From Eucommia ulmoides (taxonomy: Eukaryota; Streptophyta; Magnoliopsida; Garryales; Eucommiaceae), in contig CM028329.1 in the NCBI GenBank assembly GCA_016647705.1, positions 57,243,231 to 57,307,230 on the forward strand: a stretch of 64,000 bases of DNA, given 5' to 3'. Every line of letters starts with the position of its first letter. Position 1 is the first letter of the stretch. The notes below the pieces were generated by a model. That model made no database searches. It was not told the DNA's origin and saw only the letters and a program-made list of their open reading frames with translations. The position numbers and the translations under genes were made by a program. This document shows, in pieces, positions 6,412 to 59,165 of this stretch.

Positions 6412-9400
6412 TCTCTAATTGGATCCATCCAAGTCGGCCTGTCAGTAAGGTACAGATCGTGGCCTCCTGGTCGGACGTAGCTGTGCTCGGTCCATCCAAG
6501 TATTCGACGGGGACGATTCTCTTCAGGCTGAACTCCACTGTAGATGGCAGGTTGACCAAAGCGTCAGTATTTCTGTTATCTTCTCAGGGAATTTGTCTCA
6601 CTTGAAAGTTCTCGAAGTTTTCCATTAGTGCGTTTACCCTCTCGAAATACGCGGTTATACTCAAATCCTTCGCCATGTACTCCCCAGTGACTTTATTAAC
6701 TACGACTTGTAAGTCGCAAAAGACTTGGAGATTCTTGGCGTTGAATTCCCTTGCTAGCTGGAGTCCGGCGAGAAGGGCTTCATACTCGGCTTCATTATTC
6801 ATGGCCTAGAAGCCCAATCTGAGCGAATACTCTATCTTTTCTCGGTCTGGTACTACCAAGACCATCTCGGCCCCACATCTGCCTATGTTGGAAGAACCAT
6901 CTGTGAAGAGCTACCATTTGTCTAGACCAAGATCAGTACTTGGTTCAGGCTGGGATAAAGTCCCCTCAGGGGTAGAGACAATAGTTGGACCGAGCTGAGT
7001 CTCCTGTCAAGTAGGGTCTTGATTATCCGGGCTGGGCTCTTCTGGGAAGGTTAGCTCATCTATGAAATTAGCCAAGACTTGTCCTTTAATGGTTGTCCTT
7101 GGCTGATACTTGATATGGAATTAACCTAGCTCAATACTATACTTTTCGGCCTGAGATGTCAGGGGAGTGAAGAACTTGTCTCAAAGGTTGGTTGGTCAGA
7201 ACCATAATTGTATGCGTTTAGAAGTATTGCTTCAGCTTTCTCAACATGACGAGGAGAGCATAAGCTAGCTTCTCGAATCGTGAGTACCTCATTTCAGCAT
7301 CGGTAAGTACCCTATTGGAGTAGTATATTGGGCTCTAAATATCACATTCTTCCCGGACGAGTGCAACGCTCACTACTGTGTCTAATACGGTAATGTATAG
7401 AAACAATTCTTCTTTATTTTTGGGAATGCTCAGCAGCGACACCAAGGAGAGTTATGTCTTGAGTACTTGAAATGTGGCCTCACATTCGAACGTCCACGCA
7501 AAGGTTTTTTTGCCTCTAAGGACCTTGAAAAATGGGAGGCACTTCTCCGATGAGCGTGAAATAAATCGATTCAGAGTGGCCAACCTCTCGATTAGCATCT
7601 GGATTGGCATTGATGCCGCTCTAGGAAACCATGTAACCAAGGAACTTCCCTGCTAAAACCCCGAAGATGCACTTGGTGGGATTCAACTTCATTCGATGAA
7701 CTCAGAGCTTATGAAAGCAATTCTAGAGATGGGCGATGTAATCGAACGCCTTATTACTCCTTACGGGCATATCATCTATATAAACCTCCATTGTCGAGCC
7801 GATCTCTTCTTTAAACATCTTGTTTACCAGCCTCTAATAGATCGCCCCAATATTGCGAAGGCCAAAGGGCATGACCTTATAACAGTAGGTGCCTCTGTCT
7901 GTAATGAACAAGGTCTTGCTCTTATCCGGGGAGAACATTGGTATCTGATTGTAGCCGGTATAAGCATCCAGAACGATTAGTAGGTCGTGCCCTATTGTGG
8001 CGTTTATAACGAGATTGATTCTCGGTAAGAGAAAGAAATCCTTGGGGCAAGCCTTGTTGAGATCTTTAAAGTCCACACATATGCCATTTGCTCTAGGCCT
8101 TGGGGACAGGGACGACATTGGAGAGCTAGTCAAGGAACTTCACTTCCTCCACCACGACTGATTTCATCAACTTATCCATTTTTTGCTCTATAATCTTTTT
8201 GCGCTCTAGATGGAACTTCCTTCGTTTTTGTTGTACATGGGGATGGTGAGGGTCGGCGTGAAAGCGATGTATAGCCACACTCGGATTGATCCCAGGAAGT
8301 TCATCGTAGGACTAGGTGAACACATCGTAATTTCTCCGAAGGACGTCAATAAACTTAGCTCGCTAATCCAGGCTGAGCTTAACTCTGATTTTGACAGTCT
8401 TTTCCTCGATCGTTGGGTGGGTAGAAACTTTCAATAACTCATTGTGGGGCTATGGTCGGGGTTCTTCCTCATAAGGGTCATCAATTGGTATGGTCCCTGA
8501 TTCGTATGAGGCTCGAGCTCAGTCTTCTCAATCCCTGGACTGGTCGTTAATTACTATTTCTTTTTCTCGAGCACTCTTATAGCGCATGTCCTGGCTGTTT
8601 CCTGGTATCATCTCGCCTCTCCTACCCATTTATCAGTGGGAAACTTCATCATTTGGTGATATGAAGAGCAAACGGCCTTTAGGGCAACTACGGTTGGACG
8701 CCCCATAATTGCGTTCTAGGGAGAAGGTCTGTCTACGATGAGGAACTTAGTCCATATTGTGGCTATCCTGGGCTTCACCCCAACTGTAACGGGCAAGGAG
8801 GTCCATCCCACTGAGCCGATAATGTCCCCACCGAAGCCAATAAGGGGAGAAGTGGTGGGCGGCACTTAGATCTACCTTCACCTTGTCGAAGGCCCACTTG
8901 AAGATTATATCTGCAGAACTGCCCTCGTCGACCAAAATCCTTCCCACCTTGTAGTGGTTGATCAGGGCCGATATCACTAAGGCATCGTTATGGAGAGTAT
9001 GGACCCCTTTGAGGTTGGCCTCACTGAAAGAGATGATGTTGTGAGTGGCGGCATCAACTATGCTCACCTTGTACACGTCTTGGTTGGCCTTTCTTTTTGC
9101 CTTGCATTTGTACCTCTTCCGAGAAGAAGATGTCTCCCTTCCGAGGCCGAGACCACCTGGATAACATTTATTTTATCGTCTACACGCTAGTCATTATCGT
9201 GTTCTACTCTTTCCCTCCTAGGTGGAGGTCAGCTACGGTTTCTCCTTCTCTGCCGCCTTTTGTGCTCATCTCGACGATTATTCTCCTTGGTTCCTCCGTT
9301 CTCTCTACGGACGTAATTCTCGAGATAATACCTCTTTATGACAATCTTAATTTTCTCTCTGAGTGGGAAACAGTCTTCCGTTGAGTGGCCTCAGTCCCGA

Positions 9401-14228: not shown

Positions 14229-15570
14229 TATTTTTATAAGCGTACTGTTTTCGTAATATAAAAATATTTTATGGATCAAGTATTTTTTATCAAAATCCAT
14301 TTTCAATAAAATATAGCCACACTGGGCAGTATCCAGATCTCAACAAAAATATCTCAGTAACATAATGACCAAATTTAAATCAACTGATCAACTCACTTGT
14401 CTATAATAAAATAACATACTTCATTGCTAGTCATATGATCGTTTACCTCACGATCGAGAGTTACGATGGTATTGTAACCTATCCAACTGTGTCATCTAAG
14501 TGGCTATCAGTGTTAGAGTTATTTAATATCTTTAATGGTAGAGGCAGCCACCTGTAGGATTTGCACTCCTAACAGGTCAATATATATCTATCCTGCAGGA
14601 CTTGTCTGACAGGTAACAACAAATATCCACCCTGCAGGACTTACCTGACAGATAACAACAAATATCCATCCTGCAGGACTTGTTTGACAGGTAACAACAT
14701 ATATTCACCCTGCAGGTCTTGCTTGACAGGTAATCTACATCTCGCAGGACATGCCCTCTTGACAAGAAGAAAACTATGGCATAGTCGGATAATAGAAACC
14801 ACTTTTCATATTTAAAAATTTACTTGATCCGCATAATGTTATAAAATAATCAATTTTAATAAACCCCCATTTTCCCCACATTTTAGTACGAAAATATAAT
14901 TTGACAATTTACATAGAAGATAATGCACATGCTGCCTTCATAATATAAAAAGAATTTACAGATCAAATATATTTATCAAACACCACCTTTCAAAATATAA
15001 TATAAATATAACCGCACATTGATCCAAAATAAAATTCCACTGCTACTATCGCAATAAAGTAATGCATTGAAATCCACCAACCAAATCATTTTGATATATA
15101 ATAAAATACCGTATACATATTTTCCTATTAGCCATAGGATCATTTCACCTTATGATTGAGAGTTACGATAGTACCGTAACCTATACAACTGTGCCATCTA
15201 AGATGGCCAACAGTGTCAGGGTCATCAATATCCTCAATGGTAGGGGCAGCCACCTGTAGGATTTGCACTCCTGACAGGTCACAACAACATAATCAATCAC
15301 CTGCAGGACTTGCCCTCCTGATAGGTTATAACAACAACGTCCTACAGGACATGCTCTCCTGTAAGGACCAATCACATTTCGCAAGATATGCCCTCTTGAC
15401 GAGATCACGCTATGACATAGTAGGATAATGAAATTATTTTTCACCTTTAAAATTTCTACTCGGTCCATTAATCATTGTAAAACTATCTATTTCATCAACA
15501 CTTTTTTTTTTCTCAAATTAATACAAAAATATAATTTGATAATTTATATAAAAGACAGTAAAAATTACAC
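14229..15570 (-). other. Two tandem degenerate copies of the LTR module
   Basis: Each copy has an end like GTACTGTTTTCGTAATATAAA, the core CTCACGATCGAGAGTTACGA (14450) or its variant near 15150, a CAACTGTGCCATCTAAG block, and an AATTTACATAGAAGATAAT-type far end. They resemble the modules in the solo LTRs at 24938-27913 and 56175-57766 more than copies A and B. The splice-like edges are not kept here. Confidence 0.6.
14576..14760. repeat. Tandem array of CCTGCAGGACTTG units, about 39-bp period
   Basis: Four to five units, each with CCTGCAGGACTTG (CCTGCAGG is a perfect palindrome) followed by CTGACAGGTAACAACA and ATATCCAC. Equivalent arrays occur at about 15250-15400, 27060-27160 and 56940-57115. 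The frame that spans it is a by-product of the period being a multiple of three. Confidence 0.9.
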
Positions 15571-36499: not shown

Positions 36500-38491
36500 C
36501 GTCGAATACTACCAATTATGAGTTTTACGATAATCAAGATATTGACAAGTTGAACAATCCATCTGCCAACCCTGATGCTTATACAAGTGAAAATCGACAC
36601 TCACTTGGTAGAATGAATGTCATGTGCCGTCATTGTTCTGCATTATACTAGATGGATGAGAGATTAGCAAGATCATCCGAACAACGTCCTCTCTTCGGCA
36701 CATGTTGCTTATGAGGAAAAATTAGGCTTCCATTACTTCTCACACCTCCGACACAAATTAAAGCGTTATATGATGGTAATGATGATAAATCAAAATCATT
36801 CCGACGTTATGCTAGAGAATACAATGCAAGTAACGCTTTTACAAGCCTTGGCGCCAACTTGGATACAAGGTTGCTTTCCGAAAGGGGCCCAACAACGTTT
36901 ACTATACATTGAGAGTTGCGTCATCGGACATGAGTATTAATCCCAGAACCGGGACAAGATTCCATTTATTCTCAATTGTACATCTACGATCCTGATTTCA
37001 CTTTTAGCGTGAGAAGCTGTAGAAATCCTCATTTGAGAACGGATGTTTTGCAAACTATTCAAGATACATTGTTGCAATATAATGCATTCGTAGATAAATT
37101 TCGTCAAGCCTTTGCAATTTTAAATCAATTAGATTTGGAACAACAAACGTTGTCTGCTTTTCTTCACTACACTGCATCTGCCGATCGTCGGCGATATAAT
37201 ATGCCAACAACAAATAAGGTGGTCGTCATATTACCGGGGGATAGAACTTAAACCAGCGCAATGAGAAATGTTGTTCTACATATAAGAGAGGTCAATGAAC
37301 TAATGAAAATCAATTAATGTCATCTTGCTTATCTACCATTGTATTACATTTTGTTGTTCCCTTTTGGTAAGCTTGGATGGGAACCTAAATTTAGACAGTG
37401 GGATGTGATTCACGGTCGACACTCAAATGCTTGACTAACTCAAATGCAATTTTATAGCTATTGTATGTTTGAAAGGCCGACAGAGTATTCGACAATTCTA
37501 AGGGGAGAAAAATTATTTCAAGAGTTTTTTGTAGATTTTTGGGCTGCGACCGAGCAAAATAGGTTGAATTATTTTAGGCAACATCAACCAAACCTTCGTA
37601 GTGAACTCTGTCAAAGTCTTACTGATGTAGCATTAGATGAGATGGATTCTAATCAAATAGGTCAACGAATGATTTTGCCATCATCTTTTATTGGTAGTCT
37701 AATACATATGTTTGAGATCTTCCAAAATTCAATAACTATAACACGGTACTACCATCATCCTGATGTGTTTCTTACCATGACTACGAATCCAACTTGGACA
37801 GAAATCACTAAAGCTTTATTGCCACATCAACAACCAACTAATCGTCCAGACTTAATTGCCCGCGTTTTCGAGTTAAAAAGAATTACTCTAATGAAAGAGA
37901 TTGAAAACACTCGAGTATTTGGAAAAAAAAGTTGTCTATGTTTTTATAATTGAGTACCAAAAAAGAGGTCTGCCACACATGCACTTATATTTCTTGATGA
38001 TCCAGACAAAATTAGAACTTGCGACCAAGTAGACAAAATAGTTTGTGCTAAATTTTTAGATCCAAATGACGAGCCAGAGCTTTTCGAGACTGTAAAAAAT
38101 ACATGGTTCACGGATTATGTGGTGCTCAAAATCCTCAAGCCCCGTGCATAGAGAACGATAGATGCACAAAGAGATATCCAGGAGATTTCTTAGAGTATAC
38201 AGCGATGGATCAAGAAGGATATCCCATTTACCGTCGTCGTGATAATGACAAAGTTTATACTGTGAGGAGGCAACAAGTTGATAATAGAGACATCGTCTCA
38301 TACCATCCTTACATTTCCAAGATGTTCGACTATCATATTAACGTTGAAGTATGCGCTGGGATTAGGTATGTCAAATATATCCACAAGTATATAAATAAAG
38401 AAGGTGATATGACGACATTGATTTTGGGAATGATGGATGAGATCAAGCAATATCTTGATGCAAAATACATTGGACCGTCTGAGGCAGCCTA
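36500..38491 (+). pseudogene. Helitron Rep (HUH endonuclease) domain
   Basis: Helitron Rep nicks and joins single strands during rolling-circle movement. The region starts with a zinc-finger block (LGRMNVMCRHCSALY), then LPLLLTPPTQIKALYDGNDD and AREYNASNAFTSLGANLD, all familiar from plant Helitrons. The Helitron_like_N region follows at 37444-37953 (YSYCMFERPTEYSTILRGEK ... LPSSFIGS ... DVFLTMTTNPTWTEI). The HUH histidines are in GLPHMHL (37964-37990). The two-tyrosine motif lies in IRYVKYIHKYINKEGD (about 38360-38410). Frame breaks occur after SALY, near 37245-37440, and at the A-run around 37922-37930; catalytic residues themselves are present. Confidence 0.88.
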
Positions 38492-43854: not shown

Positions 43855-44010
43855 AAAAAAGTGCGGTCCATTGCATGAAAACTCTCATCGTTGCGGGGTA
43901 TGGAGAAGGTCAGATGTACATAGCCTTGATCCTGTTTCCAAGATTTGAACCCGGGACTTCCAGGTCACAATAGAACCCATAGTAATACATTGTGATAATT
44001 TGCTCTGCCT
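43855..44010 (-). mobile_element. Au-type SINE, minus strand
   Basis: Minus-strand reading: TGTGACCTGGAAGTCCCGG, GGTTCAAATCTTGGAAACAG (B-box GGTTCAAATCT), AAGGCTATGTACATCTGACC, CCCCGCAACGATGAGAG and CATGCAATGGACCGC, then a T run. This is the order of the Au SINE consensus. The right (5') limit is approximate. Confidence 0.8.
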
Positions 44011-44822
44011 GAAACAATCTTTTTAAACTTGTCACAGTTTCCATCTCATATGGTCTCAGATTCCTCTATTTCAGTTTTATAAATTGCCTGCTTCTGTATC
44101 ATAAGTATTCATAAAAATGGTTATTTAGACAGAGTTCAAATTGCCCCTGCAGACCCACTTCATTGTCTATATGATACCGTATTACCCAAAAAAAAAAAAA
44201 AAAAGGACGAAGAAAAGTCTAATTTTATCATTTTTGTCTCTTTCCAAATCTTGCTATGTGCTGACTGATTTTAATAGACACTTGTAATAGGTTTGGGCGG
44301 TTTTTCCTAGCATTTCCACCTGTTGGATTATGGAGCGAGTTAGGTCGACCCGTGGAGCGTCCACATGGACCCTGTGTTTCATGGAGAATCACCATGTGAA
44401 ATGGGTGCACCTCTTGATCTTAAGGATCGCGTCTTTTCGATAGACACTTATTAGAACAGACATACCCTTTCGGTATGTGCCCATTGGAACGGACACATCC
44501 TTTAGGATTTTCTCTATAAATATGCGTTGATATCTCTAAGGTCTCTATCCTTATCAGATTACAGATAATTTGAGTTGCCTTGGTTAGTGAGTGTGTGAAT
44601 ATTATCGGAAAACACTTTAATAGTATTTTTCTTGCCGACGAGAGAAGAAACAAGGAACATGTTGTAAACGAGTCTTCCAAATCCGAAAGGTACGCTTTCG
44701 CATTTATGCTTCTGCATTATTCTACACCACCTAAAATTGTCATGATAAAGGTGAAAGAGACTCATAGAAAGGACAAACCCAAATAAAAAACTAAGTATGG
44801 GGTATAATATGATCATCTGTTT
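44011..44822. other. Non-coding stretch with a possible promoter
   Basis: The complex sequence at 44230-44600 (GGACACATCC motifs, TATAAATA at 44516) looks like a retroelement LTR promoter region, but no second copy or primer-binding site was found. The rest is unremarkable. Confidence 0.35.
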
Positions 44823-45171
44823 TGTTGAATACCACGTTGCTTGTCTTACCTGATCCTAAGCCATATATAAAGTGTAGGGCAATCCTCATCTTATAAGACG
44901 TTTTATGAGAGTGAGTTAAGCCCATCGGTTCCTACATGGTATCAGAGGTAGGACTCTTGTTTGATGTTAGGTGTGTTGAGTCCTACATCGATGTCGGCCC
45001 CCCTCAATATCCGTTCGCAGTGGTTTGTCAAAAAGTCCACCCTGCGCGTGGGGCGTATTGAATCACACATTGCTTGTGTTACATGATCCTGAGCTATATA
45101 TAAAGTTTAAGATAATCCTTATCTTACAAGGTATTTTTCGAAAAGTAAGTTAGGTCCATTAGATTCCTACG
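44823..45171 (+). mobile_element. TRIM (tiny LTR element), 349 bp
   Basis: Two direct repeats of about 115 bp (44823-44936 and 45056-45171) share TTGAAT, CACATTGCTTGT, GATCCTAAGCCATATATAAA, AATCCTCATCTTA, GTTAGGCCCAT and TTCCTAC. Between them, a primer-binding site TGGTATCAGAGG sits directly after the first repeat, and a purine-rich GCGTGGGGCG precedes the second. The 119-bp interior has no coding room. This is the plan of a terminal-repeat retrotransposon in miniature. No clear target duplication. Confidence 0.85.
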
Positions 45172-45680
45172 TATAAATAATTTCATCTATTTGACCCATG
45201 TTAAACTAAATTTCTATTATTACTATAATTTGTGTATCGTTTAAGACTTTCGAGTGCCATACTTTTGTCATACATATGTGGATCAGTTCACATTATCTAT
45301 TAATTAAAATAGATAGGTTAATTATGTTGAATTTAAACCATTCTATTGGTAAATTCTAGTCTAATCTAACTTTATAAAAAAGCATCCTTTACACCCAGTC
45401 CAAAAGTTTTGTTCACACCTTGAAACTTTTTATAATCCTCTATTTAAGTTTGTTATTTCCTGTCCTTTTATTTAATTTTCTTCGCTACAACTCACAAGTC
45501 GCAACGTGTGCACTACGCACCCATATATAAAATAGTATTAATTTGGTTAAACTAGTATAAAGTTTTTAGGAAATTTCCACTATTAAATTTGTTTATATTA
45601 TTTTCTTTTGTTTAATTTTCTTCCTTACAAGTACACAGAAAAAGAGTATCTGTGCATGCATACACATGTACGTCCTAATT
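45172..45680. other. Non-coding stretch
   Basis: AT-rich; a block near 45400-45620 has two similar AAATTTTCTTC/ACAAGT-type segments. Nothing else recognised. Confidence 0.4.
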
Positions 45681-45914
45681 GACTAATTACATTTTATTCC
45701 CCTATAGTTAAACCATTTTCACTTTGCTCCCCTGTGATATTTGCGTCACCACTTTGCTCCCTGTGGTTAGGCCTTTGTTGCACTTTACTCCCCTCGTCAG
45801 CACGTTGCCATCTGTAGTTAGGCCTGTATCACCGGGTAAAGTGCCACAAAGCGTAACTACTAGGGGCAAAGTGCAAAACAGCCTAACCACGTGGGGATAA
45901 GGTATAATTAACCC
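45681..45914. mobile_element. MITE with GGGTTAATTA ends, copy 1
   Basis: The ends are inverted: TAATTACATTTTATTCCCC at left and, inward from the right, GGGTTAATTATACCTTATCCCC (20 bases shared in pattern with 58530-58794). The inside carries repeated CACTTTGCTCCC / CTAACCAC phrases that pair with each other. It is the same family as the element at 58530, more eroded at its left end. Confidence 0.7.
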
Positions 45915-46195
45915 TATATATAAATATATATATATATGTATATTGATTTATATGTATGCCTTAATTGATTTATAATGTTCTCCAATTCTGACTTTTCTTC
46001 CTTTACACTAGTGGGAAGCAAAAGAGACATATCCTTTGCATGAGAATAAGAACAATGTCTGTTTCTTCATAATCACAACTCATATTGGACTTTCAAATTT
46101 TTTATATAATAAAGAGTATCTAGAAATTAAAATTCAATCACAAAGACAATTTAATTTTAGGCATCCTCCAGTATTTCCTCTTTTGTGATTTACAG

Positions 46196-46500
46196 AGTTT
46201 TTTGCACTTTGCACACCTGAAGATTTAGAGAAATTCTACTTTAGCCTGTGTCGTTTCAATTTAAACACATTAAACCTTGAAGTATCCGAATCGTGTCAAG
46301 TTAGTCCTTCAGTCATTTTTTATGATGGAATTCACCCACGTGGGTGATTTTGTGTTTAACACGTGGCTAATTTCCATTATAAAAAATAACTGAGTTACAT
46401 ATTTGAACTAACTTGACATGATTAATGTGTTTAAATTGAAAGTATAGGGGCTAAAGTGAGATTTTTCTAGAACTTCAGGGGTGCAAAGTGCAAAGACCTC
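46196..46500. mobile_element. MITE, about 305 bp, long inverted ends
   Basis: The left end TTTTTTGCACTTTGCACACC matches the right end read inward (TCTTTGCACTTTGCACCCC). Similarity continues about 130 bp, including TTTCAATTTAAACACATTAA and a central CACCCACGTGGGTGA palindrome (46333-46347). No target duplication was assigned. Confidence 0.8.
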
Positions 46501-47194
46501 AGATAAAAATAACTATAGTTTTTAATAGTTTATCAACACTTTTACTTTCAATTTAGGGTGGTGTATATGTACAACCACAACACCAACAACACTATTGTAT
46601 CGCACTATTATCTGATGCATTTGAATTCCAAATTCGTCTTACAATTTACTACTTAAGTCTAAAGGCGTACATTTGGGATTTTTGCTTCACCTTAGCTTTG
46701 TTCCGTGACATACATTATTAACGGAGAAGTTGCTTTCATGCTGAAAATCACTTTGATATTTTTTTTCGTTCCTGATGTGATTCCATATAATATAATCGAA
46801 AAGCAACGACAAAAAATTGCATGATAAGAATCAATTGATCGTTAATTATTGAAGGGCGGTGATCTCAGTAAGTTTCACAAAGATGTATAGAAGCAAAACA
46901 TAGATTTTTTTCTCTCAATTGAATTAGGTTCTTGATTTGTTGTGTGAAAAGCATGGTGGTAGCTAGGTTTGCTGTAGAAAGTGGACTCCAAGTCATGTTA
47001 CTAAAAGAGAGGGAGGTAGAGACAGAATCTGTTCTCGTTTTTTCGTGCAGCGCGTGTGATTATATGACCATATATATATATATATATAAGGAACCATGAC
47101 AAAAAGTAATGCATGGCCAGATCAAAACCCTAGCTAACTACATATACATGACAGCTCTTTCTCCCTCCCTCCCTCTCTCTCTCTCTCTAAATAT
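46501..47194 (+). promoter_or_regulatory. Probable promoter/leader region of MIR166
   Basis: Non-repetitive sequence upstream of the hairpin. An alternating TA run (47071-47091, TATATATAAGG) could serve as a TATA region about 115 bases before the hairpin, and a CT-rich run (47158-47188) precedes it, as is common in plant leaders. No protein frame. Direct evidence for a transcription start is lacking. Confidence 0.4.
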
Positions 47195-47315
47195 ATATTA
47201 GTTGAGGGAAATGTTGTCTGGTTCGAGATCTTTCTGAGTGAAGAAGCTAATCATGTAAAAAGCTTCCTTCAATTTGAGTGATTTCGGACCAGGCTTCATT
47301 CCCCTCAACCTTCCA
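47195..47315 (+). ncRNA. MIR166: MIR166 microRNA precursor
   Basis: Mature miR166 occupies 47284-47304 and matches the canonical 21-mer exactly (TCGGACCAGGCTTCATT then CCCC). The star strand lies at 47208-47228 (GAAATGTTGTCTGG then TTCGAGA). The two arms pair in constant register (positions sum to 94510) from 47202/47308 to 47230/47280, with only a few mismatches and wobbles and a two-base 3' overhang. An upper stem (47244-47248 with 47261-47265) closes a 12-base loop. In plants miR166 guides cleavage of HD-ZIP III transcription-factor mRNAs, setting leaf polarity, meristem and vascular pattern. The hairpin shows no damage, so this locus is probably active. The primary transcript likely extends into the downstream SINE. 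Confidence 0.96.
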
Positions 47316-47492
47316 CTACTACCAATGGATGAATCTCCCTATGAACACGTTGTGCTTTCTTGACTTAGTAGCAGGTGCTTAGCTTTGAGCCTGTATGCTG
47401 CCTATACATGAAGAAGAACATGAAATATCCTAAGCCTTGTATCGGTAATCGGTAATCCGGGTGTTTTCCAGGTAATCTTCAATTCATTTTGT

Positions 47493-47651
47493 TATATAAA
47501 CATTTATATTGTGACCTAGAGTTTGGGGTTCAATTCTTGGAAAGAGTCTCTCTGTATACAGGAATAAGGCTACGTACATTTGATCCTCCGCAAACCCCGC
47601 AATGGCGACAGTCTTCGTGCATTGGGTTGCCCTTTATATAAACATCTATAT
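47493..47651 (+). mobile_element. Au-type SINE with 17-bp target duplication
   Basis: The element is 47510-47634 (125 bp): GTGACCTAGAGTTTGGGG, B-box GGTTCAATTCTTGG, AATAAGGCTACGTACATTTG, CCCCGCAATGGCGACAGTC and GTGCATTGGG, ending TTGCCCTT. It is flanked by TATATAAACATTTATAT (47493-47509) and TATATAAACATCTATAT (47635-47651), one mismatch. It lies about 200 bp downstream of the MIR166 hairpin in the same orientation. Confidence 0.9.
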
Positions 47652-47860
47652 CTGTTATGATCATTAACCTAATATATGAATAGACTCTAATTATTTAATC
47701 AGACATATGCTAAGGTTGTGCTAACTTGGTTATAGTGAACCTCGGCGGCTTGGTGTATTAGAATCATAGATAAAAAAAAAATTCACAGGAGTTAGGCAGC
47801 GATTGTTAGCACATAATTCAAGTATTGGAATTGAAAATGAAGGCACATAAATTTTAAGAG

Positions 47861-48292
47861 GGTTAATTGATTTTTACCCCTTGTACTTTAGTTTTGTTTC
47901 ATTTTAACCCCTCTACTTTGAAAATGGACTAAAGGAAGAAACTCACATCTTAGTCGAAAAAAATATAAGATGACTTCCTTGCCTTTTATTTTTTAATTGA
48001 AATTCAATATTTAATGGTAATGACAGGAAAAACTAACATTTCCTCTCTCTTTCTGTTTTTTCTTAAAGACAAAATAAAATTAAAATGCAGGGTAGTTTTG
48101 TTCATTGCATGGAAATTTAAGATAGGAGTTTTGCTTTCACATAATTTTTAACATATTACGTTAAGTTAAACAAAAAAAAATGGGTTTCTAATTTATTATA
48201 AGTACAAGGGGATAAAGTGTAGGGTTTTAAAGTAGAGGGTACAAAATGAAACAAAAACAAAGTACAAGGGGGTAAAAGGCAATAAAGTGGCT
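47861..48292. mobile_element. MITE, about 430 bp
   Basis: Left end: GGGTTAATTGATTTTTACCCC, TTGTACTTTAG, TTTTGTTTCATTTT, CCTCTACTTTG. The right end repeats this inverted: CAAAGTACAAGGGGGTAAAA preceded by TAGAGGGTACAAAATGAAAC. The middle is AT-rich and non-coding. Ends are approximate and no duplication was assigned. The first bases resemble the GGGTTAATTA family at 45681 and 58530. Confidence 0.75.
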
Positions 48293-48667
48293 CATGTTAT
48301 ATGGCAAAGGAATTCTATTCCCCATTATAGTTGATGCTTTCTATGACTCTTCTTTATTTCTTCTTCTTCTTCTTCTTCTTTCAGGTTGGAAGATAAAAGC
48401 AAAGTTGAGGTTCTTCTTCTTTCATTAACATCTATCGAAAACACAGGAATACTTCAGTCTTCAGACAGTTTTGTAAGAAGATAACTTCCTTTGTGGACAG
48501 GACTGTCATAAGCATATGCATATTGATCGAGCTAGGTGTTAAGATCTATCTTTGCAAACTATGAATGTATGGTTGTAAGACCTAAGAAAAGGCCGTTAAA
48601 AAGACTATTTACTCTTGATACTAAATAAATATATAATAACTTATAAACGTATGGATTGCTCCATGGA
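48293..48667. other. Non-coding stretch
   Basis: A TTC microsatellite (48358-48380) and otherwise unremarkable sequence. Confidence 0.4.
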
Positions 48668-49185
48668 CATTTGACTTGGGTAGGGTGGTGTTTGGCTTCA
48701 TGGAATTGGAGTTTTGGAATTGTTAATGTGAAAATTTAAGAAATTAGGGCCACGTTTGGTTATTATTTCCATTCCCTAATTTATGTTTCTGCTTTCAAAA
48801 TTTTGGGATTAATGTAAAGAAATGTGTTTCATAAATAAGTTTTTGTTCCAAATTTTGAGAATATTCTGAAAGTATTTCTTGAATTCCTTGAGAATTTGAG
48901 AAATTTTTATTTTTTTTATATGCACTTCCATAAAATTATTATTCCCATCATTAACCCGCTCGCCACCATACAGATAAAGAGAAAAAAAAAAAAAAACACA
49001 AATTTTGCAACCAAATGTTTCTTGCTTCTATTCTCATAAATTAAAAGAAACAATTTTACGAAAACGGTCGTTACTAAAAATATTTCTATTCTCGGAATAC
49101 TTCAGAACGGAAATAGAATCGTGTTTTTTTTATTTTTAATTTTAATTTTAAACCTTGAATTCTGTAGTACCAAATGATATTTGGT
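48668..49185. mobile_element. hAT-like MITE pair, tentative
   Basis: The outer ends (TTTGGCTTCATGGAATTGGA near 48690; inverted TTTGGTACTACAGAATTCAAG near 49175) and a second inner pair (GCCACGTTTGGTTATTATTTCC near 48750, inverted partner near 49100) suggest one element inside another. GTTTGGTT-type ends are common in hAT-derived MITEs. No 8-bp duplication was confirmed. Confidence 0.4.
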
Positions 49186-49398
49186 ATTAAATTAACTTTG
49201 GCCTGTGCTGATGCTTCCAATATTGACCAAAATGAAACAAACCAAAAAGTAAGAAGCTTAAATCAATTTGTAGTGTCTTTAGTATTCCGAAACAATTGGT
49301 AACAATTTTGGTATTCAAATAATTAGAAAATGAGGAAAAAAAATTCAACGCCTTGATTGCATATTAGTTTGGATTTTTAGCCTAGTAGCATGGAACCA

Positions 49399-49402
49399 CC
49401 CC

Positions 49403-49433
<31 letters not shown>

Positions 49434-49444
49434 AAAAAAAAAAA
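49399..49444. repeat. C25 run followed directly by A21 run
   Basis: 25 consecutive C (49399-49423) and 21 consecutive A (49424-49444). Lengths this extreme should be treated as uncertain, as polymerase and sequencing slippage are common here. Confidence 0.9.
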
Positions 49445-49537
49445 CATAGACGTGTTGAATTCATCGTGTAAAAAACAAGATCCAAATAAAATTGCAACAA
49501 CAATAATTTCCAAAAAGAAGTCTGGTTATATAATATT

Positions 49538-50729
49538 AGGGAAAATTAGTAGGCAGATCCATATTAACTTCTAATTTACCAATTAAACACGCTAATGAAA
49601 TAATAAACCGATCCGTACACTTCTTGTTAACAATCTGCCCTCGCATTATATAAGACAGTGAAGATTCTATAATAAGGATTGAGGAGTTTCCATATCAACA
49701 AAATCATTTTACTAAAATGAAATAATTATTGTCGTACACATTTTTTTAAATCTAATTATATATTTAGATTCGTCTCAACAATATCTTTAAAATAATATCA
49801 AATTCATTATTATTTTTTTTCATTAATTTCAGTTTTCACATTCATGTTACATTCAACTTGATACTTCTATAATTTTTAGTTTCATACAAATTATAAGATA
49901 TTACATGTAATATTTACATGAAATACGATTTAGCACAGACAATGTTACATTCCACACGCAAAAAACGAGAGTTTATAATTAGTTGTGTTCAGGACATTAT
50001 AGTGTCGTTCCAGCTGAATTGGATGTTATATTAAACATGCAAATAAAAATAAAAATACAGTAATGTGACACGTAACATTGATGTTACATGAATGTTACAT
50101 TATAACATGGTGTAATTCCTAACTTTTTGGTTTTAGTTTTGGTTTGGATTTAATGTTACATGTAACCTACCTTTTGGTTTGGTTTTAGTTTTGGTTTGGT
50201 TTGAATGTTACATGTAACATTGATGCTACATGAATGTTACATGTCACATACCTTTTGGTTTGGTTTTAGTTTTGGTTTGGTTTGAATGATACATGTAACA
50301 TTGTGTAGTTACTAACATTTTGATTTAAGTTTTGATTTTGATTTGGTTTTAATGTTACATGTAACATGATGTAGTTACTAAATGTTACATGTAACATTCA
50401 CATTCATTATGATAAACAACTTTAAAAAATGTGATTGATATCTCATTTTAAAAAGAATTAATCAAACATAATTGTTGTATAAAAAATTTATTGTTTCACG
50501 TTCAGATTGATATCAAAACAAGTATTTTGTTCCACCTAGAGTTTGTCGTATGTTACATAATTTAGTCACGCATAAGAGAGAGATGATTACATGATGTTTA
50601 TGAAATGGTGCATTAAATAGGGGTATTTTAATCACGAAAATGTCATAAGGACTGTTCGATTCAAAGAAAAAGTAGTGGATTTATTTGGTAGTTTTGGGTA
50701 CTTTTTAGAACTGCTTGGTAAACGTCCCT
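49538..50729. mobile_element. MULE-like non-autonomous element carrying a palindrome array
   Basis: The left end AGGGAAAATTAGTAGGCAG and the right end read inward AGGGACGTTTACCAAGCAG are inverted repeats, with weaker similarity for about 60 bp. Flanking 9-mers (TATAATATT and TATATTATT near 50731) are similar but too AT-rich to be proof. The interior has no coding frame; its middle is the tandem array at 49890-50410. Confidence 0.55.
49890..50410. repeat. Array of TGTTACATGTAACA-type palindromes
   Basis: The phrase ATGTTACATGTAACAT or halves of it recurs more than ten times, alternating with TTTTGGTTTGGTTTTAG and TTTTGGTTTGGTTTGAATG in units of about 60-75 bp (best between 50095 and 50400). 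The core is a perfect palindrome. Confidence 0.8.
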
Positions 50730-51416
50730 ATATATTATTTGGATAGGAGAAAGTGTATGTTTAACTCAACCAGTTGTAAGATAGTGTTTGTGTTCATTAA
50801 AAATTATTTTGTTGAATTCAATAAGAAAATCAATATTAATTTCTTTAAAATTTACTTCTACATTTACAACTCCGAAGTTAATATTAAATTTGTTCAAAAT
50901 TGTTTAGTCGAATTCAACTTGAATTAAAAATTATCTTGTTCAATTCAACAACGTATACTATTGTTCAATTTAATTTTTAAAATAAAATTGTAAATTATTT
51001 GTTTTTAAAAAAAAAAACAAAATAATAAAAGATTGATTAGAATAAAAATATAAAAGTAAGATAGAATTTTAATGTTTCAATTGGATTAGGGAAATGGGAA
51101 AGAAGGAGAAGGAAGTGACCATTTTGTATTTTCTTATTATTAGAAATTGTTTACCTAATTTTCTACTAATAAATTTACCCTTAAATTAACAAGATTTAAT
51201 TATCTAGCCTATTTTACCCTTCTAATTAAATTTCAACTATTCTTAAATATTTGTTTATTCTCCCTCCCTTCTCCCCCTTTGGGAAATCTTCACAAGACAA
51301 ACAAAAGACTAAATCGCAGCCAATGCCGACCCATCTCCAAACACCAATCGTTGCCAACAAATATTTCCATCACCGACCACCAGCTCACTGCCTTCAACAA
51401 CTATCTCCATCGCCAA
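50730..51416. other. Non-coding stretch left of the copia element
   Basis: AT-rich with scattered GTTGAATTCAA phrases (50790-50960). From 51290 the sequence is more complex and codon-like (CCGACCACCAGC), interrupted by the copia insertion and resuming at 57956, but no gene is recognised. Confidence 0.4.
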
Positions 51417-51745
51417 CCACGTAATAGAGAATAAATATTCGTTAAATGTAAATATTTTATTTATAGTAGTTTCCCTTTAATTGTAATTAGGGTTTCCTTT
51501 ATTCATGTATTTATTCATGTACTATAAATATCTCAAATACTTAATGAGAAGACTCATGCCATTATTCATTCTCTCACTTAAATTTTACATGGTATCTGAG
51601 CTTTAGATCTCCCAAAAACCCTAAGCCTTTTCCACCCCCTTTGCGCCACCTGCCTCGAGCGCCGTATACTTTAACGTTGCAGGGCCGCCGTCATGCCTCT
51701 ACAAGCTAGCCCTAAAACAACCAGCGCCCCCTCCCCTCCTCTCTC

Positions 51746-54700
51746 ATGGCTCACGAAAACAACCTAATCACCATCCCCAATCCTGTAGAACTTACCCACC
51801 TCCTCATCATCCTTCAAATCCACAACTCTGTCAAACTAACCCCCACAAATTACCTATCTTGGAAGCTTCAAATTGAGGCCATCCTTATAGGTTACGACCT
51901 CTACAAGTTTGCTGATGGTTCTCATCCCCCTCCGCCTGCCACACTTCTTAACAGCAATCTCCCAAATCCCGGCTACTGGGTACGTCAAGACAAATTGATT
52001 TTTGGCGCTCTCGTGGGCTCTCTCACGCCCGTGTTCATCCCTCTAATAACCCAATCTTCTACGTCCCGTGATGCTTGGCTTGTTCTCGCCAACACGTACG
52101 CCCGTCCGTCTCGAGGTCACATCAAACAGATTAAGGACCAACTAAAGTTACTCACCAAGGGCACACAATCCATCTCGGATTACATGCAGTCCATCAAAAC
52201 TCGAGCTGACGAGTTGGCTGCTCTGGGCAAACCACTAGATCTGAAGACCGCATAGAAAAGATTATTAATAGCTTGGGTGATGAATACAGCTCCATCATAG
52301 ATGCCGTTAATGGTCTTGACACCACGATCACCTTTGACGAGCTACACGAGAAGTTGATCAACAATGAACTTTCCTTACTCACCCCTCATGCCCCCTCACC
52401 ATCAGTCCCAGTCTCGGCCCATGTGGCCAAGTTCAAGCCCAACCAAGGCCGACCGGGTCCTCGCTCTCTGCGTCCCCCTGGTCCTTCGCCCTCTAGTATT
52501 GCTCTACAACGTGATGGTCATCCTCCACCCCGACCCTACTTAGGACGTTGCCAATGGTGCCATCAACAAGGCTACATAGTTCCTCAATATCCCGTATTTC
52601 ACCGCTCACAACCATCATTGCAGCCCCCACCAGTGCCTTGGCAACCACGTGCCAATGTGGCCATTGCCACCAACTCCGAGACCTCTAGATGGCTCTTTGA
52701 CAGCGGCGCCTCCCACCATGTTACATCGGACCTCCAGAATCTCGCTCTCTATAGCCCATATTATGGTGCTGACGATGTCATGATTGGTGACGACTCGGGT
52801 AAACCATTCTCTCATACGGGTTCCACTAGTTTACCCACATATTCTCATACTTTCACTATTACTAATGTTTTATGTGTGCCTACTATGCAGAAGCAACTTA
52901 TTTCTGTTTCTAAATTTTGTGGTTTGAACAAGACCTATATTGAATTTTACTCTAATTTTTTTATTGTGAAGGATATCCGCACAGGGGTGACACTTCTCAC
53001 GGGTCCGCTTAAAAATGGTGTGTATGAATGGCCAACCTCCCATTCCAAATCCTCTCCGCTGGTCACATTCTCAAGTCTGGCATCATCGTCTCGATCACCC
53101 ATCGTCTTTCATTTTTAAGCATCTTGTTTCCAATTTTCATTTAGATGTGTCTTTATTGTCTGATTTGGACCACAATTGTAATTCGTGTGATATCAATAAA
53201 AGCCACAAACTTTTTTTTTTCACTTCCAACTTAGTCTCCAAAGCACATCTAGAGATCGTTTTTTCTAATGTTTGGACTTCTCCTGTCTATTCTATCGATG
53301 GTTTTAAATTCTATGTCATCTTCGTTGACTATTGCACCAAATACATATGGCTTTACCCACTTAAAAGAAAATCTCAAGTCCGTGACGTGTTTACACATTT
53401 TAAAACCATTGTCGAAAAATACTTTAACAAGTCCATCATCACTCTATACACCGACAACAGGGACGAATACTTTGCTCTCGCATCCCTTTTTGCCTCTGCC
53501 AGCATCTCCCATCTCACCACCCCACTTCACACCCCTGAGCACAATGGCTATTCGGAGCATCATCACCGTCACATAGTTGAGACAGGCCTATCCCTACTCT
53601 CCTATACGTTTATGCCCTTGTCCTTCTGGTCTTATGCCTTTGTCATGACCACATTCCTAATCAATCGTCTACCTACCCCCACCCCCACCCCCACCCTTGA
53701 CCTCGACTCTCCATTTGCCAAACTGTTTTAAGTTCCTCCCAACTACTCCAGACTTCGGAGCTTCGGATGTCTTTGTCATCTGTGGCTTCACCCCTACTCC
53801 GCCCACAAACTAGCCGCTTGCTCGAGTCCATGTGTCTTCCTCGGCTACTCTACTGCATAGAGTGCCTATTTATGCTTTGATCCATTTGCCGCATGTCTAT
53901 ACACTTCTCGTCATGTCAAGTTCGTCAAGTCTGTGTACCCGTGATCCCCATCTACCCCGTCTGTCATCCACCAACATCATTGATTGGTGCACATCTATGT
54001 CTTCTCTTCACACCTCAGCTACACCATCAGGGACCCGTCTGACATCACCCCTAGCATCGATATCACCTAGTCAGCCTTCTGGTCCTAACGCCCATGTGCC
54101 CACTCTGTAGCGCTGCGACGCTAACTTACACTCTCCCAGCGCCCCGGTGCCCATTGCCAATGTCGCAACGCTGGCCCTGCATCAGTTTCGAGGCCAAAAC
54201 CCCGAGAGGACAATATCGTAGCTCCCGCATATTAGTGCCTTGTTGTCATGTCCACCTCTCTCAGTGCCCTAGCATCATGTCCACCTCTCTCAGTGCCCCA
54301 ACGCCTGTTGACCAGCGCCCCAGCATTGGCCCTGCAACAGGTTTTGGGCCAAAAACCCAAGAAGACATCGTCTTGGAGCCCGACAGTCAGCTCCTTAGTG
54401 CTTCAGCCTCACCTGACTAGCGCCGCAGCGCTAACTCGGGCTGTTTCGTTCTACCCTCAGACATTACCTCACCAGCACCCAAGGATTGCAACTCTGGCCT
54501 CGTCTTTGCAGGGACATCCCTAGGCCCTCCCGAGCCTCCAACAATACCCGTTCGTGTGATTGTCATTCGATCCATGAATAAGATTACAAAACCTATTCAA
54601 AAGCTCAACTTGTTCACAAAATTGGGCAGAGTGCCCGACAACTAACCTACCAACGCCATTAAATCTCTCAATGATCCAAAGTGGCAACAAGCTATGTCTA

Positions 54701-56165
54701 ATGAATTTGATATACTCATCCGCAGTGGTACCTGGGAACTTGTCCCTCATGACCACTCTCAGAATGTCATTGGGTGCAAGTAGATCTACCGTACCAAGTA
54801 TCTTTCTAATGGTTCTATTGACAAGTACAAGACATGTCTTGTGGAAAAAGGGTTCTATCAACGCCTTGGGGTAGGCTATCATAAGACATTCAGTCCTATT
54901 GTTAAGCCAACCACAATTCATTTGATTCTCAGCCTCGTTGTTAGTTGGGGATGGAAACTACCCCAGCTTGATGTCAACAATACCTTCCTTCAAAGTTCCC
55001 TCTCTGAGTTTGTTTTCATGGATCAACCGACTGACTTTGTTGATCTCGATCGCCCTCAGTACACCTACAAACTCCACAAGGCCATCTATGGGCTCAAACA
55101 GGTTCCGTGTGCGTGGTATAATGAACTCTGCACCTTTATGGTCTCCTCAGGGTTCACCAACTCTCATGTTAACTCCTCATTGTTTGTACTCAACTCTAAC
55201 AATCAATAACTTTACCTCTTGGTCTATGTTAACGACATCATCATCACCGGCAGTGACAACTCACTTCTGCAACAGTTCATCCATCAATTATCAGTCCAGT
55301 TCTCCATAAAGGACCTTGGGTAGCTCACCTACTTCCTAGGATTTAAAGTTATTCACCACTCACAAGGAGTACTTTTGTCCCAAATATGGTACATTGCAGA
55401 TCTCCTTGAGTGCACCAAAATGTCTATTGCTAAGCCAGTCGCCGCCCCTATTCTTACCAGCCCAATCCTCATGCCCACATCAGGTTCCTCACTCACGGAT
55501 CCTTCTGAGTATCACGCTATTATCGGGAGTCTTCAACATCTTTCACTCATACATCCAAACGTTGCCTACGTAGTGAACAAGTTGTCTCAGTTCATGCATC
55601 AACCCACAGATGACCAGTGGAATGCTATCAAACGCATTATTCAATACCTCAGTGGCACATTCGATCACGACATCATTCTCTACAAAGACTCACCACTCTC
55701 TCTGCACGTTTTCTCTGATGCTGACTGGGCAAGGAACAAGGATGAATTCACCTCCCCGAGCACTCACGTAGTCTATCTGGGTAGAAATCCCATTTCTTGG
55801 AAATCTAAGATGCAACGTACAGTGGCTCATTCCTCCACTGAGGTTGAATACGGTCGATTGCAACAATAGCTGCTGAAATATGTTGGATCTTCTCTCGGTT
55901 GTTTGAACTGGGCGCTAACCTTTCGTAGCAACCAGTTATCTATTATGACAATGTAGGAGCTACCAGTCTCTACTCCAATCCCATCTTTCACTCGTGGATG
56001 AAACATGTCGCCCTAGACTACCACTTCATTCGCAAACAGGTTCAAGGTTGATCTCTTCGTGTTGCACACGTCTCCTCGACATATCAACGGGCAGATATTC
56101 TCACCAAACCACTTGCTCGCACAAGATTCTTAACTCTCAAGGACAAGATTGGACTCTCCTCTTAG
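51746..56165 (+). pseudogene. Copia gag-pol fossil
   Basis: In order: the gag UBN2-like region (LTPTNYLSWKLQIEAILIGY, 51746-52255), a degraded knuckle CQWCHQQGY (~52.55 kb), protease near WLFDSGASHHVT (~52.69 kb), GAG-pre-integrase WHHRLDHPS (~53.08 kb), integrase core (FVDYCTKYIWLYPLK, ~53.33 kb; TPEHNGYSE, ~53.54 kb), reverse transcriptase (PQLDVNNTFLQSSLSEFV, ~54.97 kb; AIYGLKQ, ~55.09 kb) and RNase H (SDADWARNKDEF, ~55.72 kb; SSTEVEYG, ~55.84 kb). Gag style and very short LTRs fit the Ale/Retrofit lineage. Fossil only; not continuous. Confidence 0.92.
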
Positions 56166-56766: not shown

Positions 56767-57460
56767 ATGAGTGTATTATCTTCTATGTAAATTGACAAAT
56801 TATATTTTTGTATAAATTATGAAAATAAAATATTTATTAAAATAGACGGTTTTATAACTTATGTGAATCGAGTAAGTTTTTAAAGGTGGAAAGTAATTTT
56901 TATTATTCGATTATCCCATAGTTGTCTTCTCATCAGAAGGGCATGTCCTGCGAGATGTGGATATATGTTGTTACTTGTCAAGTAAGTTCTGGAAGGTCGA
57001 TATATGTTGTTATCTGTTAGGCAAGTCCTGCAGGGTAAATATATGTTATTACCTGTCAGGCAAGTCTTGCAGGGTGGATATATGTTGTTACCTATCAGGC
57101 AAGTCCTGCACGGTGGTTGCTCCTACTATTGGAGATATTAAATGACCCTGACACTGATAGTCTTCTTAAATGGTACAGTTGTACAAGTTACGATACTGTC
57201 GTAATTCTGGATCGTGAGGTGAAACGATTCTATGGTTAGTAGAAAAATATGTGTGCGGTATTTTATTATATATCAGAATAATTTGATTGATTGGTTTAAA
57301 TACATTATTTTATTGCAGTGATAGTTATGGAATGTTATTTGGACTCAGGGTGTGGTCATATTTATATTATATTCGAGAAGTGGTATTTAATAATTATGTT
57401 TGATCCATAAAATATTTTTATATTATAAAGACAGTACACCGATAAAATATTTGGTCTCAG
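56767..57460 (+). other. LTR-embedded inverted-repeat/intron-like module, copy F
   Basis: The left edge is TCGAG|ATGAGTGTATTATCTTC, the right edge ATAAAGACAGTACACCGATAA with TTTGGTCTCAG|GTGCG a little later (given as two short pieces). The core GGATCGTGAGGTGAAACGATT lies near 57210. It is shorter than copies A and B (694 bp). Confidence 0.6.
56940..57115. repeat. CCTGCAGG-type tandem array, about 40-bp period
   Basis: Four to five units of GTTACCTGTCAGGCAAG followed by TCCTGCAGGGTGGATATAT, in the opposite orientation to the array at 14576-14760, as expected from the opposite orientation of the element. Confidence 0.9.
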
Positions 57461-58227: not shown

Positions 58228-59165
58228 CTGAAATAGATTATAGAAAATTTAACAAAGTAAATATTATATAGAAAAATCTCAGGTTAAGGTTTGTGCTTAT
58301 GTATTTGGGTTATCCCAATATTTTCTACTTCTTTCTGGTCTAATTCTATGTATAACAAAAGAATCTTGACTACAAACTAAAATTACTACGAAAGATTAAT
58401 TGACTATTTCATTGACATAGATTATCTTCAAGATTCAATTCCTATGTTAACTAATCTAATGTGAATCAATCGTTTCATATAATTCATCTTATTAACTCGT
58501 ATCAATATCAAAGAAACCATGTTGCACAAGGGTTAATTATACTTTACCCCATGTGATTAGGCCATTTTGTGCTTTGCCCTTGCGGTATTTTCGATATCAC
58601 TTTTTCCCTTGTAATTAGGCTTTATTGCACTTTACTCCGTGATATAGACCTAACCACAGGGGAACAAAGTGCTGACGAAGAAGATAAAGTGTAACAAAGG
58701 TCTAACCACATGGGGCAAAATAGTGACGCGAATACCACATGGGGGCAAAAATACAAAACAGTCTAACCACATGAGGTAAGGTGTAATTAACCCCGTTTCA
58801 CAATCATTAGATATAAACCATAAGTATTAGGTCTAATGTCAAATAATAATAAATTCTAATACCAATTTCTACAATCCAAGTACCAAAATAAATTCATTAT
58901 ATAAAAACCCTTAAATCAAGATTCCTCATCACACAAGAATTACACTTACACACATACCTATAAGGGATTAAAAGTAAAAATTACAAGGAAACTTAGACGT
59001 TACACAATCCTAACCCGAATGAGACGATTGACTGCTCATGCCAATGTAAAGCAACATCTCTCGTTGAATGTCTTAAATCTCAGTGATAACCCCTCCAAGA
59101 ACCCTACTCATCATCAATAGTGAATTTGATTATTATTATCAATAGACCCTCATCCCTAAAGTAAG
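57956..59165. other. Decayed unclassified repeat with T42 run
   Basis: The phrase GTGTCGAATCCAGAGAAATTG near 58090 and downstream wording resemble the class of repeat inserted at 25587-27040. A run of 42 T lies at 58182-58223. It is interrupted by the MITE at 58530-58794. No coding sequence. Confidence 0.4.
58521..58803. mobile_element. MITE with GGGTTAATTA ends, copy 2, near-perfect 9-bp duplication
   Basis: The element is 58530-58794 (265 bp). Ends: GGGTTAATTATACTTTACCCC and its inverted partner GGGTTAATTACACCTTACCTC. Flanks GTTGCACAA (58521-58529) and GTTTCACAA (58795-58803) match at eight of nine bases, which fits a Mutator-like origin. Same family as 45681-45914. Confidence 0.85.

Follow-up and report, generated by a model that had tools for sequence, protein, structure and literature searches.

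MIR166 is a common plant microRNA gene controlling leaf and stem patterning; its members define the HD-ZIP III domains of leaves and meristems, and several with the same mature product occur in a plant. The locus described here raises the question of whether a MIR166 hairpin surrounded by transposons in Eucommia ulmoides is a functional gene kept by selection, as its intact appearance had suggested in an earlier note. The DNA analysed, hereafter the window, is a stretch of 64 kb (C5:57243231-57307230), and the genome searched comprises 947 Mb in 391 contigs. The locus is very probably a functional flowering-plant MIR166 gene, one of at least eight in the genome, with transposons inserted around its promoter blocks and hairpin. 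Features are listed in Table 1.

Table 1. Positions in the window of the MIR166 locus, its upstream blocks and the neighbouring mobile elements
Feature	Position	Strand	Basis
E4, distal upstream block	46008..46059	+	84.9% over 53 columns with C14, E 8.6e-10; weak in C3b, 2/300 shuffles as good
MITE between E4 and E1	46195..46500	+	79-nt inverted ends, 82% complementary
E1, upstream block TTGTTGTGTGAAAAGCATG	46937..46955	+	18/19 in C3b, 0/300 shuffles as good
E2, upstream block	46969..47001	+	33 bp, 84.8% with C14, E 6.6e-5; found in C14 only
Putative TATA-like box, TATATAA, 27 nt upstream of E3	47083..47089	+	Sequence; inside AT repeat
E3, upstream block TGCATGGCCAGATCAAAA, near putative transcription start	47110..47127	+	1 mismatch in C3a and in C3b
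MIR166 precursor hairpin	47201..47309	+	RF00075 81.6 bits, E 4.4e-18; MFE -56.2, z -8.76
miR166 star, 5' arm, GAAATGTTGTCTGGTTCGAGA	47208..47228	+	Pairing table; 2-nt 3' overhangs
Mature miR166, 3' arm, exact	47284..47304	+	Pattern match, 0 mismatches; six exact genome sites
Conjectured primary-transcript intron holding the SINE and the downstream MITE	47472..48384	+	Donor and acceptor ranks
SINE, seemingly 5'-truncated	47510..47633	+	18-bp target duplication, 1 mismatch
MITE, about 62-nt inverted ends, 84%	47863..48286	+	Self-BLAST

The precursor and its family in the genome

When the whole 64 kb was searched with cmscan and Rfam 15, a MIR166 precursor at 47201-47309 on the forward strand was the sole gathering-score match, scoring 81.6 bits (E 4.4e-18) against RF00075, for which the gathering cut-off is 60 bits. 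The alignment covers model positions 1-111 of 111, and the locus shares with the family the exact mature sequence on the same arm and at the same offset. At a relaxed threshold (44000-51500) the reverse strand of the hairpin scored 57.1 bits, a value below the cut-off such as a near-perfect stem would be expected to give. A minimum free energy of -56.2 kcal/mol was computed for the 131-nt hairpin region compared with -25.7 +/- 3.5 for shuffled sequences (z -8.76), none of 200 shuffles being as stable. The plant miRNA criteria of Axtell and Meyers reportedly call for 2-nt 3' overhangs, at most five unpaired bases and a foldback of less than 300 nt; the present locus has 2-nt 3' overhangs, 3 of 21 bases unpaired and a 109-nt hairpin. 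The hairpin is thus an intact MIR166, as had been claimed, and the locus is a real and ordinary member of the known family.

Six exact mature sites were found in the genome, two on C3 (at 3.3 Mb, C3a, and at 30.8 Mb, C3b) and one each on C5, C8, C14 and C17 (26.3 Mb). A genome search with RF00075, in which 45 of 176032 first-look candidates were scored and which therefore gives a lower bound, returned at least eight MIR166 loci on the better strand, seven over the cut-off and one, on C11, below it at 59.4 bits; among these eight the window locus ranks second by score after C14. In the C11 locus (L036, C11:323752-323935) and a second C17 locus (L035, C17:8504642-8504771) the mature ends in CCTC rather than CCCC. 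At C3a (L001, C3:3324343-3327363) the 5' star arm is present in tandem copy, at about 1392-1469, with the star at -109 and -52 from the mature, an arrangement that could permit two alternative hairpins.

Across the six exact-mature loci hairpin lengths range from 85 to 210 nt, with arms that are largely invariant and loops that vary in sequence and length. When the 28-pair structure of the window locus was laid over all six, 90.5% of 168 cells were paired, compared with 29-57% when it was slid by one to three columns. Changes on both sides were observed at three pairs, a number reached by 21 of 500 shuffles, and the observed covariation score, percentage paired and count of further pair types were reached by 33, 74 and 250 of 500, respectively. 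A shift of the structure by -1 raised the covariation score from 0.112 to 0.124 and the number of pair types from 8 to 9. Covariation across six sequences is suggestive at best.

Duplex register, star sequence and strand choice

The mature 21-mer occurs exactly once in the window, and no match within 3 mismatches was obtained in 100 shuffles. The identical 21-mer is also printed as miR166 in the literature; it had 0 matches in collections of viral contigs and of genome contigs. In the pairing table the star lies opposite the mature with 18 of the 21 mature bases paired, bases 12 and 13 facing two U's and C18 facing A47209. The earlier note had described an exact mature, a correctly offset star and a constant pairing register, all of which are borne out by these data; it had also placed a variant A at the third star base, and by register A47209 is star base 2. 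This A, with the pair at mature base 18 open, distinguishes the locus from the RF00075 family, and was seen in the window locus only among the six exact-mature loci. Pair 9-216 of the six-locus alignment is G-C in the other five and unpaired in the window locus. Replacing A47209 by G would lower the computed fold from -56.2 to -63.1 kcal/mol.

Related star sequences have been published in other plants. The blueberry 21-mer vco-miR166c-5p, AAUGUUGUCUGGUUCGAGAUC, recorded at 1.66 and 2.40 normalised reads, is also contained in the window hairpin, and differs in its partner, the blueberry 3p starting UGUCGG and the window mature UUUCGG (PMC5751366). The grape vvi-miR166g star, GGAATGTTGTCTGGTTCGAGA, with 262 reads, is one base off the window star, starting GGAATG where the latter has GAAATG (PMC5050227). 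In a comparison of arm and mature sequences only, both precursors share the 5' arm ...AATGTTGTCTGGTTCGAGA with the window locus. In open-licence PMC main text neither the full star 21-mer (in DNA letters) nor its 3'-terminal 20 bases (as DNA or as RNA) were found, and pieces of the precursor likewise gave no occurrence; a 19-base piece of the star occurs in two plant papers and a 14-base piece in an unrelated one. As the star sequence is distinctive, small-RNA data could show what this locus contributes.

The star A might also be taken as the first sign of decay in a silent duplicate, that is, a hairpin recent enough to look intact and no longer transcribed. The loss of a base pair formed by G and C at the five other loci, and the presence of transposons on both sides of the hairpin, would fit such a history. 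It is nonetheless unlikely, as the mature and the rest of the stem are preserved, whereas upstream the similarity to C14 is down to short blocks. Moreover, A-C mismatches are among those often seen, and precursors that carry them are generally processed in the same way as paired ones, although at position 1 of MIR172A such a variant roughly halved the miRNA (PMC7577975).

In a functional gene, as judged from the structure, DCL1 would cut the 109-nt hairpin to release a 21-nt miR166/star duplex, and by analogy with what is established for the family miR166 in AGO1 would cut HD-ZIP III mRNAs, or AGO10 would hold miR166. In the genomic sequence of HD-ZIP III genes an intron interrupts the miR166 site, and for this reason the 0 matches obtained when the genome was searched, within 1 mismatch, for the contiguous site are not taken as evidence on HD-ZIP III targets. 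The stem beneath the duplex consists of only 7 pairs, whereas base-to-loop cutting is described with a bulge 15-17 bp below the duplex, miR166 members differing in mode (PMC8688358); pri-miR166c can be cut from both sides (PMC9893293).

Energies computed over six bases at each duplex end set the window locus apart. At the star 5' end the value was -0.3 kcal/mol, which belongs to a slipped register, the native one being no better, in a calculation good for ranking only; the other five exact-mature loci have a stronger star 5' end, at -5.2 to -5.7. At the mature 5' end the window value was -5.2 (-2.2 to -5.2 in the others), giving a difference of star minus mature of +4.9 (0.0 to -3.5), and the energy of the whole duplex was -22.4 (-24.0 to -28.2). 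Among the six, only the window duplex was computed to be weaker at its star 5' end than at its mature 5' end. It is conceivable, if doubtful, that the locus is a natural duplex variant whose strands are chosen, or sorted among Argonautes, differently. Owing to its additional A-C mismatch, at mature base 18, the duplex is weaker at the star 5' end, so that more star may be loaded; loading into AGO10 may also be favoured, since AGO10 senses mismatches in the guide's 3' region. AGO10 picks miR166 duplexes via such mismatches, positions 12 and 13 being important and 16 also open in Arabidopsis (PMC9508841); in the window duplex 12, 13 and 18 are open, whereas 16 is paired. If true, the miR166 pool from this locus would differ from those of its sisters in fate despite an identical mature sequence.

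Upstream blocks and the putative promoter

Of the four short upstream blocks, C14 and C3b each have three and C3a has one. Taken together E1 and E2 gave a gapped match in C14 that none of 300 shuffles equalled. E3 was equalled by 0 of 200 shuffles in both C3a and C3b and, in a second test, by 0 of 300 in C3a and 1 of 300 in C3b; C14 gave no such match, 87 of 300 shuffles doing equally well. At C3a the matches to E1-E2 and E4 were not above chance (70 and 182 of 300 shuffles as good, respectively). No block rose above chance in C8, in either C17 locus or in C11, the best being E3 in C8 (33 of 300). Measured from the mature, to within a base, the blocks lie at -1275 (E4), -346 (E1), -314 (E2) and -174 (E3) in the window locus, at -653 (E4), -383 (E1) and -271 (E3) in C3b, and at -1000 (E4), -299 (E1) and -279 (E2) in C14, with E4 preceding E1 in both sister loci as in the window. 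The rest of the upstream 1.4 kb had no match comparable to these blocks at the sister loci. The C14 locus (L005) shares with the window locus, beyond E4, E1 and E2, the loop-side stem GATCTT; it differs in that star base 2 is paired and E3 was not found.

Matches this short could be chance resemblances or fragments of common repeats that say nothing of a promoter, and the similarity to C3a does fall within the range of a control in which 139 other C5 pieces of 1405 nt were compared with the upstream regions, 4 of them being as good or better. None of the 139, however, did as well against C14 or C3b, and the order of blocks is kept at both. Furthermore, a search at E 1e-3 that covered 200 kb of C5, 20 kb of C14 and the sequence of four further MIR166 loci gave, for each of E4, E1-E2 and E3, the block itself and a single additional match, upstream of another MIR166. 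Chance or repeat origin is accordingly quite improbable, and from the presence and absence of blocks across loci, promoter parts seem to be common to four of the eight MIR166 loci. Such sharing among paralogues is not new in kind, since in a soybean study paralogous MIR166 promoters cluster in pairs; TATA boxes are also reported there in the MIR166 promoters that were analysed. The strings of the upstream blocks did not occur in open-licence PMC main text. The star base unlike that of the five sisters, and these apparently shared upstream blocks, are the points of specialist note, and against their transposon background the blocks should be useful for finding regulators of a MIR166 subfamily.

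By eye, C3a, C3b and C14 also have TATA-like stretches, lying as in the window locus upstream of E3 or, in C14, of the place that corresponds to it. Transcription by RNA polymerase II would then start near 47110-47120, at a TATA promoter that precedes the hairpin by about 100 nt. A 30-codon ATG frame (47109-47201) and a 17-codon one in frame with it (47148-47201) end at the base of the hairpin and are candidates for a primary-transcript peptide. Downstream, a donor ranking 7 of 3270 and an acceptor ranking 2 of 2997 (forward strand of the window, weight matrix) could, as a conjecture, bound an intron of the primary transcript at 47472-48384. The downstream sequence of the paralogues gave no support for this intron or a 3' exon, the one match being a TATA-type repeat (E 0.47).

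Mobile elements around the locus and in the rest of the window

The earlier note had placed a SINE and a MITE within 1 kb of the hairpin, and this was confirmed, both lying downstream; a further MITE, that between E4 and E1, ends 701 nt upstream of the hairpin. Its family occupies at least 40 places in the genome including the window copy, the other 39 being at 77-82% identity, and is therefore numerous and diverged. The C14 locus has no such MITE between its E4 and E1, copies of the family being listed elsewhere in its 20 kb and none in that interval, although a 13-nt match to the end of the MITE, which may be a remnant, lies there at -504. The SINE, which we take to be Au-like, is bounded by target duplications at 47492-47509 and 47634-47651 that are identical at 17 of 18 positions, a target-site duplication being a feature of Au SINEs; the 200 kb of C5 examined contain three diverged copies of it. 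No target duplication was found for either MITE or for the repeat at 45684-45915, of which there is a diverged copy at 58529-58749.

The transposons have, to judge from these coordinates, landed between the promoter blocks and downstream, outside the matched blocks and the hairpin. That the hairpin is itself part of a transposon, or was carried by one, is very improbable: the neighbourhood is transposon-rich and MITEs can give rise to hairpins, but the ends of the MITE and SINE fall outside the hairpin, and MIR166 loci are few (at least eight found) with the six aligned ones diverged outside the stem, unlike a MITE family. Support for the proposal that the locus persists under selection comes from paralogues, not from relatives: its rank as second of eight loci, the largely invariant arms beside free loops, and the upstream blocks shared amid MITE and SINE insertions. 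This is the pattern expected of constraint and is indirect evidence that hairpin and promoter parts have been kept by selection amid transposons.

The same note had called the hairpin the only host locus in the window free of decay. Pfam matches were obtained in 7 of 30 window ORFs (10 of 20 from one list and 20 of 54 chosen from 174), and six of these carry transposon domains: Ty1-copia pieces in four ORFs at 51716-55206, rve and gag_pre-integrs scoring under their cut-offs, the N-terminal domain of a Helitron at 37435-37950 and a reverse transcriptase at 7837-8139 on the reverse strand. The seventh is GPR15L, below its cut-off, at 15184-15471 on the reverse strand. The claim, tested in part by these 30 ORFs, is not proved. 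A broken Ty1-copia retrotransposon extends over 51716-55869 in several frames, with gag, integrase and reverse transcriptase pieces. At 49399-49444 a run of 25 C's is directly followed by a run of A's, which may mark the end of a mobile element or an assembly fault, and at 49841-50413 palindromic ACATGTAAC-type repeats are clustered with an 81-nt tandem unit. Tandem arrays at 14584-14733 and 56940-57116, about 42 kb apart and in opposite orientation, seemingly consist, by eye, of the same 39-nt unit.
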